Shown in pieces: positions 3,415-24,097 of a stretch of DNA of 64,000 bases. Source of the DNA: a virus. The notes under the pieces were generated by a model, which saw nothing but the letters and a program-made list of their open reading frames with translations, searched no databases and was not told where the DNA came from. The stretch is taken from positions 1 to 64,000 of IMG/VR virus record IMGVR_UViG_3300020170_000001; one strand, written 5' to 3'. Position numbers and translations under genes: made by a program. Position 1 is the stretch's first letter. Every line of letters begins with the position of its first letter.

Positions 3415-3768
3415 TCAGGCGGGGATGTATTCCAGTGCCAACTCAGCGCCCAAGACTCGCATGTACGGGTCGGATTCCTCGCACGCGACGTTGCCAGTGC
3501 TGCCGATGAGTTCCGCATCCGTACTGTTGGAGAGCGTGAACAGGCAAACTACGAAGAGCGGCCCTTCGTATGGGAAGCTTCCCTCGTAGGCCTCCGTTTC
3601 CGGCTCAATCGAAACGAAGTAGGGCCCGGACGTGAGGCGCTCTTCGGCCGCAGCGAGCTGCCGCGCGCCGTTGATGCGGCCTTGCTCCTCCGTCTCGGTT
3701 GTCGGGTCATACGACGAGGGCGCGTTCTCGTAAAAGAACCGTTCGGCTTCCGTCAGTGTGCTGGTCAT
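3415..3768 (-). CDS. Hypothetical protein, 117 aa
   Basis: The start at ATG 3766-3768 is chosen because GGGATTCGAG precedes it. An ATG 12 nt earlier lacks a ribosome site. The product (MTSTLTEAERFFYENAPSS...) is acidic with a helical N-terminus and a beta-rich middle (GPYFVSIEPE, PLFVVCLFTL). Function unknown. Confidence 0.55.
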   Translation of the reverse strand: MTSTLTEAERFFYENAPSSYDPTTETEEQGRINGARQLAAAEERLTSGPYFVSIEPETEAYEGSFPYEGPLFVVCLFTLSNSTDAELIGSTGNVACEESDPYMRVLGAELALEYIPA

Positions 3769-3871
3769 CTCGAATCCCATCGGCGCACGGATCAGGGGGT
3801 GTCACCCAAGCATGCCCCGCGGTGAAACCGTCGACATCGCCTGATCGAACGATGTCGGGTCACCTGATCGT

Positions 3872-3946
3872 TTAGTTGCCGCGGGTGCGACCGATGACAC
3901 CCGCGGCGATGAACAGGCAGAAGAGAGTCCACGCAGCAACCGCCAT
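3872..3946 (-). CDS. Single-pass membrane micropeptide, 24 aa
   Basis: The ATG overlaps the stop of the upstream gene (TGATG at 3948-3944). The product is essentially one hydrophobic segment (AAWTLFCLFIAAGVIG) followed by RTRGN, which would leave the basic end in the cytoplasm. A hairpin (CGACATCG and its complement, 3832-3857) follows. The length makes this tentative. Confidence 0.45.
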   Translation of the reverse strand: MAVAAWTLFCLFIAAGVIGRTRGN

Positions 3947-4416
3947 CACTGCCACTCCGCGAGGCGTTTTTCGAGTTCGGCCACAGTCGCCTCTTGTGAC
4001 CGGAGGAGTGTTGCTGTCGCGTCGCGTTCCGCGCGTGCGCTATCCATCTCATTGTTGAGCCTGGCGCGCTCCGCAAGACGCAGAACTTCTGGATTCGCGT
4101 CGATGTGGTCCTGTACGGCCGCCGCGATCGCGGCCACCATGGCAGCGGAGTAGAAATCCGGCGCATCCGTCCCTTGCGGGCGCTTTGACAGGCGCGGGCG
4201 CGTGCTGTCGTCGACGGCCACACGCCCAGTGGCATCGACGACAAAAAACACCATTCCGATGTACTCCTGCTCGCGGTAGACCAACGCTGGTGTTTCATCG
4301 TTGATGTGCGCCGGGCCGGATTCGTCACCGACGGTGACCGCAACGCGAGCCGTCATGCGTACCTTGCCGAATTTTGTGGTCAACACGATGTCTCTCGGGA
4401 AGCTCATCCAAGCCAT
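3946..4416 (-). CDS. Hypothetical protein with C-terminal coiled coil, 156 aa
   Basis: An N-terminal beta-rich part (about residues 1-70) is followed by a long helical segment that probably forms a coiled coil (LRLAERARLNNEMDSARAE... to ...ATVAELEKRL). The ATG has GAGGAAAGG about 9 nt upstream. It ends in a 1-nt overlap with the 24-aa membrane peptide. Function unknown. Confidence 0.6.
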   Translation of the reverse strand: MAWMSFPRDIVLTTKFGKVRMTARVAVTVGDESGPAHINDETPALVYREQEYIGMVFFVVDATGRVAVDDSTRPRLSKRPQGTDAPDFYSAAMVAAIAAAVQDHIDANPEVLRLAERARLNNEMDSARAERDATATLLRSQEATVAELEKRLAEWQ

Positions 4417-15045: not shown

Positions 15046-15114
15046 TGGCAAAGGAGAGTCGCATCCTTTAGGTTACATCCACTAAACAATCACCAGCACA
15101 TTTGAAAGTCGCGG

Positions 15115-15205
15115 ATCAGCTTCATGTCCCCATGCTCTGCCGTTGAGCTACCGCCTCATGTTGGAGAGGCGGTCCGGATTTGAACCGAAACCCTGCGAGA
15201 TTTGC
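15115..15205 (-). tRNA. Circularly permuted tRNA, identity unresolved (unit 2)
   Basis: On the minus strand a T arm (TTCGG-TTCAAAT-CCGGA, 15189-15173) and acceptor 3' strand CCGCCTC (15172-15166) come first. An 8-nt linker that begins TCCA (an encoded CCA end) follows. Then come the acceptor 5' strand GAGGCGG (15157-15151), TA, a D arm (GCTC-AACGGCA-GAGC) and ATGGGGACATGAA. Acceptor strands pair over 7 bp only in this permuted order. The flanks AGTCGCGG (15213-15206) and CCGCGACT (15114-15107) pair over 8 bp. The anticodon stem is weak (TGGGG with TCTCG or TCGCA), there is no U33, and Cys (GCA) is only one candidate. Confidence 0.6.
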
Positions 15206-15263
15206 CCGCGACTGGTCGATCTGGTGACCGGATGTTGCTATTGAGTTTTGGCGATAGCTTGAG

Positions 15264-15350
15264 TTTCAAATCGGTGCGCGTCTGCCATTTGCGCCACCCG
15301 GGCGTGACGAGCCCGGGGCAGGATTCGAACCTGCAACATCACCGGTCATC
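15264..15350 (-). tRNA. Circularly permuted tRNA-Gln(UUG) (unit 1)
   Basis: Order on the minus strand: anticodon stem 3' strand CGGTG (15344-15340), variable loop ATGTT, T arm GCAGG-TTCGAAT-CCTGC (15334-15318), acceptor 3' strand CCCGGGC (15317-15311), 7-nt linker, acceptor 5' strand GCCCGGG (15303-15297), TG, Gln-like D arm (AAATGGCA loop), anticodon stem 5' strand CACCG (15276-15272), then ATTTGA. All stems pair perfectly when the ends are rejoined. The loop becomes ATTTGAC for any junction in the shared TGA, giving anticodon UUG. Flanks TGAG/CTCA and GGCGA/TCGCC (15375-15250) can pair outside. No CCA is encoded. Confidence 0.75.
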
Positions 15351-15373
15351 AACCTGAGGCTGAGCCTCACTCG

Positions 15374-15402
15374 CCCCTCCGCGCCGATACGATGTGGAGG
15401 GG
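15374..15402 (-). terminator. Hairpin between a coding gene and the tRNA locus
   Basis: CCCCTCC and GGAGGGG pair across a 15-nt loop, 95 bp downstream of the 15497 stop and directly upstream of the permuted tRNA-Gln. It could be a terminator or a processing structure. Its 3' strand overlaps the outer tRNA flank pairing. Confidence 0.4.
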
Positions 15403-15496: not shown

Positions 15497-16273
15497 TCAG
15501 GCTGCGAACAGGTAGTCGAAGACCCGCCGCCCCGGATTCGGGCGCAGAGCGTCTTCCATGTTGGCCTGTTCGCGAGCGAACTTCACCGCCTCGGTCAGTG
15601 CGGTGATCCGGGTCAGCATCTTGTTGACCCGCGATGCCGGCAACGCGCCGGAGAATTTCACCGTCGACCAGGTGCCCACCGGGATGTCCTCGGTAAAGGA
15701 CTCCACCTGTGCCGGGTGCCGATCGGTCGCGACGGCCAGGACGTGGTTGCGCTTGGCCTTCGCGGTTTTGACCGTGGCCACCGGTTCGGTGCAGTAGACG
15801 TCCTTGGTCGGATCGAACGTCCACGTCTCCGTCGAGTCCAGGATGGGCAGCTTGCTGACCACCGTCTCCAAGTTGACTAGCTGCTTTTCCAGGAACATCA
15901 GATACGAGACCGGGACGTCGGCGAGCAAGGTGACCGGCTGATCGCCGTCGATCAGCACGACGTCCGCGCGGGCGTGCTGATTGGTCCAGTCCAGCGCCGC
16001 GGTGATGTCGAACAGCTTGGTGAGGTTGCCGGCGACATCGCGCAGCACCTGCTCCACCTTGACCTGTACGTTGGCCGATTCGGACGGGTAGCGGAATCCC
16101 TCGTCGTCTTTCGGGGTGTAGGTCCGAGAGTGCCCGGCGAGCAGCGCGTTCTTTTGCAGGAGGTGATAGCTCTTGGTCAGATGGCTCTCGGAGTCGCCCT
16201 TGATGCCCGTACGCACGGCGATGATCTGGTTGAGAAGCGTGACGCGCTCGGCGGCAACGGCGACTTTCGGCAT
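15497..16273 (-). CDS. Conserved actinobacterial protein (DUF7873-like), 258 aa
   Basis: The pattern LLNQIIAVRTGIKG...HARADVVLIDG, PVSYLMFLEKQL, ILDSTETW, EDIPVGTWSTVKFSGALPA and VKFAREQAN resembles a family conserved in actinobacterial chromosomes and phages that I recall as DUF7873. Its function is unknown. ATG 16271-16273 is preferred because AGGAGG precedes it. A TTG 42 nt upstream lacks one. Confidence 0.7.
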   Translation of the reverse strand: MPKVAVAAERVTLLNQIIAVRTGIKGDSESHLTKSYHLLQKNALLAGHSRTYTPKDDEGFRYPSESANVQVKVEQVLRDVAGNLTKLFDITAALDWTNQHARADVVLIDGDQPVTLLADVPVSYLMFLEKQLVNLETVVSKLPILDSTETWTFDPTKDVYCTEPVATVKTAKAKRNHVLAVATDRHPAQVESFTEDIPVGTWSTVKFSGALPASRVNKMLTRITALTEAVKFAREQANMEDALRPNPGRRVFDYLFAA

Positions 16274-16534
16274 TTCTGCGGGGCCTCCTGTGTTCGGCGT
16301 TTCCAAGAGACTCAACCGGCAGGGGCGTTGGGTGGTGACGGCCTGTCACCCGTTCGGGTCATTTAGCGCTTGAAGGCCGGGCGGTTAGGGTGCTCGACAT
16401 CGCGAGAGGAACAGATCCGGCCTGATCTGCTCGCGAAGGGGATCGGGTAGTAGTGGATGCCGGGCGTGGTGATAGACCTCCGAGGTCGCCAGGCCAGACG
16501 TGCGCGAGGCCCGGCCCCGGCTAGCAAACGACGA
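16274..16534. other. Intergenic region, no gene seen
   Basis: Together with the terminator at 16535-16564 this forms a ~300-bp gap. Frames on both strands are short and Arg-rich. It contains GACCCGAACGGGTGAC, a short imperfect palindrome, and probably the promoter of the 16273 start. I see no convincing gene. Confidence 0.4.
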
Positions 16535-24009: not shown

Positions 24010-24011
24010 TG

Positions 24012-24097
24012 TGGGGATGGCCGGACTCGAACCGGCAATCTCTGCGATTTTCCAGCGCTAGTCAGTCGCAACACTCTGTCCTTTGAGCTACACCCCC
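24012..24097 (-). tRNA. tRNA with enlarged anticodon loop, Phe(GAA)-like
   Basis: Acceptor GGGGGTG (24097-24091) pairs with CATCCCC (24019-24013), D arm GCTC-AAAGGACA-GAGT, variable loop AGATT and T arm GCCGG-TTCGAGT-CCGGC are all normal. The anticodon stem TTGCG/CGCAG encloses 20 nt instead of 7. Removing 11 nt (ACTAGCGCTGG or GACTAGCGCTG) leaves CTGAAAA inside an extra A-T pair, the usual tRNA-Phe loop with A73 agreeing. The extra pair makes a 6-bp stem, so the identity is tentative. Confidence 0.65.

Follow-up and report, generated by a model that had tools for sequence, protein, structure and literature searches.

Alphaproteobacteria and cyanobacteria have a two-piece (permuted) tmRNA whose gene connects the acceptor strands through a short linker, and the CCA is carried by the 3′ piece. 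In YrlA RNAs (RF02553; the Salmonella YrlA crystal structure is PDB 6CU1), the D, T and acceptor arms follow each other in circularly permuted order (PMC8394870, PMC11472068). The 3′ half also precedes the 5′ half in the permuted tRNA genes of Cyanidioschyzon merolae, other algae and Archaea (PMC3978253, PMC3218864).

In the window studied here (the whole stretch of DNA that was analysed, 64 kb of a 124.7-kb viral record), the elements of a tRNA occur in permuted order on the minus strand at 15250-15375: CGGTG, ATGTT, a T arm (GCAGG-TTCGAAT-CCTGC), CCCGGGC, a linker, GCCCGGG, TG, a D arm and CACCG. The letters are as given in the original prediction, with the 3′ half placed before the 5′ half and a 7-nt linker (TCGTCAC) between the two, and the stems are complementary as claimed there (acceptor 7/7, T 5/5 and 'anticodon' 5/5 pairs). 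Overlooked at that stage were a second unit (15227-15090), an upstream gene of the DUF7873 family and an array of hexamer repeats. The features of the locus are listed below.

15497..16315, minus strand: DUF7873 (PF25283) gene upstream of both units, 272-aa ORF (Pfam E 1.4e-95)
15250..15375, minus strand: unit A (unit 1), permuted tRNA-like RNA, the one found in the original prediction
15346..15370, minus strand: unit A, 5′ hexamer repeats GTGAGG CTCAGC CTCAGG TTGATG(A), with TSA every 6 nt in homologues
15318..15334, minus strand: unit A, T arm GCAGG-TTCGAAT-CCTGC, 99.5% of cells paired in alignment A4
15311..15317, minus strand: unit A, acceptor 3′ strand CCCGGGC, partner 15297-15303, 7/7 pairs changed on both sides in homologues
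15304..15310, minus strand: unit A, 7-nt linker TCGTCAC, without CCA in the window copy
15297..15303, minus strand: unit A, acceptor 5′ strand GCCCGGG, partner 15311..15317
15278..15294, minus strand: unit A, D arm GCGCAAATGGCAGACGC, D-stem columns 100% paired in alignment A4
15272..15276, minus strand: unit A, 'anticodon stem' strand CACCG, partner CGGTG 15340-15344, length and register differing among homologues
15090..15227, minus strand: unit B (unit 2), second permuted tRNA-like RNA directly downstream of unit A (structure counts from alignment A5)
15221..15227, minus strand: unit B, basal stem 5′ strand TCACCAG, partner CTGGTGA 15090-15096
15206..15212, minus strand: unit B, second helix 5′ strand GTCGCGG, partner CCGCGAC 15108-15114
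15173-15189, minus strand: unit B, T arm
15166-15172 and 15151-15157, minus strand: unit B, acceptor strands CCGCCTC and GAGGCGG
15158-15165, minus strand: unit B, linker TCCAACAT with T73-CCA
15134..15148, minus strand: unit B, D arm GCTCAACGGCAGAGC

A scan for T arm, acceptor strand, linker, acceptor strand and D arm in this order returned two sites in the 64-kb window, both at this locus, and 40 dinucleotide-shuffled versions of the 64-kb sequence gave no site. Unit B scores 114 bits with covariance model R1, although it is itself one of the 26 sequences from which R1 was built. The permuted tRNA layout at the locus is real, and the RNA is conserved. Both units are missed by ARAGORN and by Rfam at gathering score, which report ordinary tRNAs alone. 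The ordinary tRNAs found were tRNA-Val(GAC) (window 24011-24097, minus strand), which has an unusual length of 87 nt, and tRNA-Met(CAU) (110138-110210 of the record), with no others. No direct similarity to the DNA of the locus was found in phage records, and a search of IMG/VR with the single window DUF7873 protein gave no close relatives, so relatives in IMG/VR were reached with an alignment as the query instead.

The linkage between the units and DUF7873 was analyzed in 160 DUF7873 loci, 80 from viral contigs and 80 from bacterial genomes, the latter being those listed out of 464 relatives found among candidate proteins. At least one permuted unit lies within 890 nt 3′ of the stop codon in 150 of the 160 DUF7873 loci listed, usually near +100 and +250, and control scans were almost empty (0/160 on the reverse strand, 1/155 upstream and 2/153 further downstream). 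As the scan requires acceptor pairing, the search was repeated with the T arm and D-arm motif and with acceptor pairing dropped as a condition. In this acceptor-free search, 114 of 144 candidates had 7/7 acceptor pairs, against 11.9 with shuffled partners. Permuted units are present beside DUF7873 in related phages; a search of related phages had been proposed in the original prediction. In the closest relative of the window (L086), two tandem units directly follow the DUF7873 gene, as they do in the window, and an unannotated gap after DUF7873 holds a pair of units in Arthrobacter phage Mimi, Gordonia phage Phendrix, Rhodococcus phage NiceHouse and Pseudanabaena phage Pam2 (in Pam2, the second unit of the pair was recognised by visual inspection, and the unit-2 covariance model matches it as well). 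A Vibrio phage and a Rhizobium phage have one unit each with DUF7873, and the unit-2 model finds units near DUF7873 in Gordonia phage Keelan and a Microcoleus phage. In Keelan (L151, 3762-4044), two permuted units coincide in part with gene 126 (3768-4013), which is annotated as encoding a hypothetical protein but is unlikely to be a real gene. Rfam at gathering score reported no unit in 18 DUF7873 loci. In several DUF7873 phages the locus sits inside tRNA arrays. The flanking genes differ between two bacterial DUF7873 loci, and the set therefore appears self-contained. No units were detectable at the DUF7873 genes of Herpetosiphon (L267, L269); in one of these loci (L269), the gene after DUF7873 resembles an ADP-ribosylglycohydrolase.

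DUF7873 is present in 34 of 60 sampled Streptomycetales genomes, and the covariance model of unit 2 was run on 26 genomes of this order (12 with DUF7873 and 14 without). All 12 DUF7873-positive genomes match the model, with 64-127 bits, and the matches sit at the DUF7873 gene in the genomes whose coordinates were compared; none of the 14 DUF7873-negative genomes exceeds 55 bits. Among the matches of ∼50 bits in the negative genomes, those inspected were adjacent ordinary tRNA genes (L317, L319) or Y RNAs next to Ro60 (L318, L320). At the latter two loci, two Y-RNA-like units precede a likely Ro60 gene, and they are missed by Rfam because their YrlA scores are just 31-42 bits (the gathering score is 69).

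Structure counts were made from alignment A4 for unit 1 (38 sequences) and alignment A5 for unit 2 (32 sequences). In both units, 99.6% of the acceptor-stem cells are paired, with both-sided changes at all seven pairs, and the T stem is paired in >99% of cells. The covariation score is 0.338 for unit 1 (0.117 with shuffled partners) and 0.582 for unit 2 (0.207 with shuffled partners), nearly a threefold difference in each case, and at most 0.149 when slid. Compensatory changes thus preserve the helices of the acceptor, T and D arms in relatives. Beyond the tRNA-like part, the basal stem of unit 2 (TCACCAG/CTGGTGA in the window) is paired in 86% of cells, with both-sided changes at 7/7 pairs. 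It is separated by a conserved internal loop (ATCGACC / CTTAAACG) from the second helix (GTCGCGG/CCGCGAC), in which six of the seven pairs are paired in 85% of cells, with both-sided changes, and the outer pair in 63%.

The flanks of unit 1 are of a different nature. Compensatory changes had been proposed as a check on both the acceptor and the flank stems, and they are found at 7/7 pairs of the acceptor stem of homologues, the flank stem of unit 1 being weak. The sequences GGCGA/TCGCC and TGAG/CTCA, which had been read as helices that bring the ends together, are both present in the window; however, only 43% of GGCGA/TCGCC cells are paired in A4, and 13 of 38 sequences have a mismatch at one pair of the TGAG/CTCA helix. 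TGAG/CTCA is better regarded as part of the hexamer array GTGAGG-CTCAGC-CTCAGG-TTGATG. In the 5′ flank of unit 1, TSA triplets recur at an exact 6-nt spacing (133 pairs, against 3.4 in shuffles), as well as at 12 nt (88 against 2.8) and 18 nt (59 against 2.4), and the 3′ flank gives a similar TSA hexamer signal. In relatives, what is conserved in the array is its sequence more than a helix. A hairpin reading of TGAGGCTCAGCCTCA was dropped, since homologues keep the hexamer repeats where the hairpin is impossible. A natural deletion was observed in Streptomyces sp. 130 (L296, 3330-3420), in which unit 1 lacks the entire tRNA-like module and the hexamer flanks are kept.

Among phage units, 50 of 104 encode N73-CCA in the linker, as do 14 of 52 bacterial copies of unit 1, with a CCA background of ∼2-3% per position elsewhere in linkers. 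This excess favours some tRNA-like processing. In Streptomyces unit 2, an encoded CCA is rare (3/65).

DUF7873 also occurs in phages of actinobacteria, cyanobacteria, Rhizobium and Vibrio. The protein of the window probably starts near 16243, as judged by alignment. Its AlphaFold2 model has a mean pLDDT of 94.3, and the fold gave no structural match at E ≤ 0.001 in PDB or BFVD and no match pointing to RNA binding. The window protein contains no TROVE domain (Pfam gives DUF7873 alone) and has no match to the Ro60 ring fold (Foldseek, E ≤ 0.001).

On this sequence evidence, the locus can be described as a DUF7873 gene and two structured tRNA-like RNAs, conserved in bacteria and phages. The original prediction went further and read unit A as a circularly permuted gene for tRNA-Gln(UUG). 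On this reading, the transcript would be circularised by a cut in the anticodon loop and ligation, and a later cut in the linker would release a working tRNA. In its favour, full tRNA likeness and covariation are seen in the acceptor, T and D arms, roughly half of the units have the 'anticodon' helix in tRNA register, half of the phage linkers encode N73-CCA, and joining can produce U33 and a UUG loop in unit A of the window. Among homologues, however, U33 is found in 16% of 103 copies of unit 1 and in 26% of unit 2, the 'anticodon' helix has 6-9 bp in ∼60% of unit 1 copies, which leaves no 7-nt loop, and its register shifts even in close relatives such as L086. Because the helix is often longer than 5 bp or out of register, the joined halves would give no normal anticodon loop. 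Relatives keep the flank motifs and hexamers and not an anticodon, which speaks against a functional tRNA-Gln(UUG) made by cutting and joining. Since U33 is rare and the helix variable in length and register, the most plausible view is that the UUG loop of unit A arose by chance. The record of the window contains no RtcB and no member of the PF09414 RNA ligase family, and RtcB was not found in 18 of 19 DUF7873 phage records tested; a ligase supplied by the host is possible. A permuted intron-exon arrangement of a group I intron was considered for the break near the anticodon, and no intron was reported by Rfam. Overall, a permuted tRNA gene is quite improbable here. Some tRNA-like use of the 'anticodon' end is nevertheless possible, given the 5-bp-like helix that about half of them form in tRNA register. 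The locus could also be a functionless remnant of a tRNA array in which a 3′ half came to precede a 5′ half through tandem duplication and deletion, an origin that would suit its position inside tRNA clusters in several DUF7873 phages; with covariation at every acceptor pair, conserved flanks and a constant position behind DUF7873 in phages as well as bacteria, this origin is hardly credible.

Another explanation is that the units are ordinary YrlA Y RNAs which use a host or phage Ro60, with DUF7873 as an accessory. In a relaxed Rfam search, both window units match YrlA RF02553 over the whole model, with 28.1 and 25.9 bits, which is within the range of units beside true phage Ro60 genes (23-42 bits); Ro60-adjacent units of phages and Streptomyces are also below the gathering score. 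Low-score matches to Twister-sister, Plastid-ycf2 and tRNA in the same search were attributed to chance or tRNA resemblance, and the tmRNA models of Rfam reported no units at gathering score. Ro60 is also present in 26 of 36 DUF7873 bacterial genomes. It was not found in the remaining 10 of these 36, which are drafts and make the absences provisional, in 30 of 36 other DUF7873 virus records, including six complete phage genomes, or, as TROVE/Ro60, in the record of the window. Moreover, the Ro60-adjacent units of phages and Streptomyces have other flanks (TACTTC and a 5′ hairpin), the linkers of those in phages lack CCA, and the unit-2 covariance model separates the DUF7873-linked from the Ro60-linked class. 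We therefore consider ordinary YrlA RNAs an unlikely explanation.

Further permuted units were gathered by a pattern scan of viral contigs, and some of these share a record with a Ro60/TROVE gene, others being in records without Ro60. Five Ro60-bearing viral contigs (L050, L095, L112, L113 and L068) contain several units with a hairpin resembling an anticodon arm just 5′ of the T arm; it has 5 bp or 4/5 pairs and a 7-nt loop with U33 (AUGCUAA, CUGCUAA, UUUGGGA, CUGAAAA, CUGGGAG). If real, these units would be closer to complete permuted tRNAs than those of the window. One of these contigs also has a ROOL RNA (298 bits; L068, 8971-9618) between tRNA arrays and permuted units.

We favour the interpretation, with a probability of roughly 0.7, that the DUF7873 gene and two non-coding permuted tRNA mimics, YrlA-like but forming a separate class apart from Ro60, make up a DUF7873 ribonucleoprotein. 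Their co-location suggests that DUF7873 binds both RNAs. Unit 1 would be contacted through the 6-nt repeats, an array that may accommodate several DUF7873 copies in a row, and unit 2 through the internal loop ATCGACC / CTTAAACG. Each RNA would have a closed acceptor end and an open 'anticodon' end on an extended stem, and the tRNA-like heads may recruit or decoy factors that handle tRNAs, such as RNase P, the CCA enzyme, modification enzymes, a nuclease or a synthetase. The linker could be opened at N73-CCA, in which case the acceptor end would consist of two pieces, like that of permuted tmRNA. The probable role of the set in phages is to tune or protect the metabolism of tRNAs in the course of infection, and the loci inside tRNA arrays fit this role. 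A tentative extension of this interpretation, possible but rather doubtful at present, is that a DUF7873 oligomer is the founder of a new class of RNA-protein particles. It would bind the repeat array and the internal loop of the two RNAs, the permuted tRNA heads with a processed CCA end might be charged or read by tRNA enzymes, and phages would have taken up the particle alongside tRNA arrays.

The RNA module itself is of a known kind, a YrlA-like permuted tRNA mimic. As far as the literature searched shows, the novel features are the protein partner, the flanks with the hexamer repeats, the combination of two RNA types and the CCA; no mention of DUF7873 was found in that literature, and an overlap of the RNAs with the original YrlA survey is possible. 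The locus matters in that a widespread pair of structured RNAs escapes ARAGORN, Rfam and genome annotation, and in that a protein family without a PDB match is tied to tRNA-mimicking RNAs in genetically tractable hosts. Through this link, the purpose of permuted tRNA mimics, a question since YrlA, becomes approachable without Ro60, and the hexamer array offers a concrete binding hypothesis.

When the units are compared with the systems described above, the two-piece tmRNA shares with them the permuted order, the short linker that joins the acceptor strands and the CCA end. The circularly permuted tRNA genes of Cyanidioschyzon merolae, other algae and Archaea likewise consist of a 3′ half, a short linker and a 5′ half with complementary acceptor strands. 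In contrast to these genes, homologues of the DUF7873 units have no conserved anticodon loop or U33, and conservation lies outside the would-be tRNA. The closest resemblance in build is to YrlA, in which the acceptor end is also closed by a short loop and the other end placed on a long stem (PMC8394870, PMC11472068). YrlA RNAs often come as two or more units, and the DUF7873 units are also paired. The partner of YrlA is Ro60/Rsr, bound through the basal stem and in some bacteria encoded within rtcBA operons, whereas the units described here neighbour DUF7873, and most of the phages concerned lack Ro60. They further differ from YrlA in RF02553 scores that, for the window units, are far under the gathering cut-off, in their flank motifs, in the hexamer repeats of unit 1 and in the N73-CCA encoded by half of the phage linkers.
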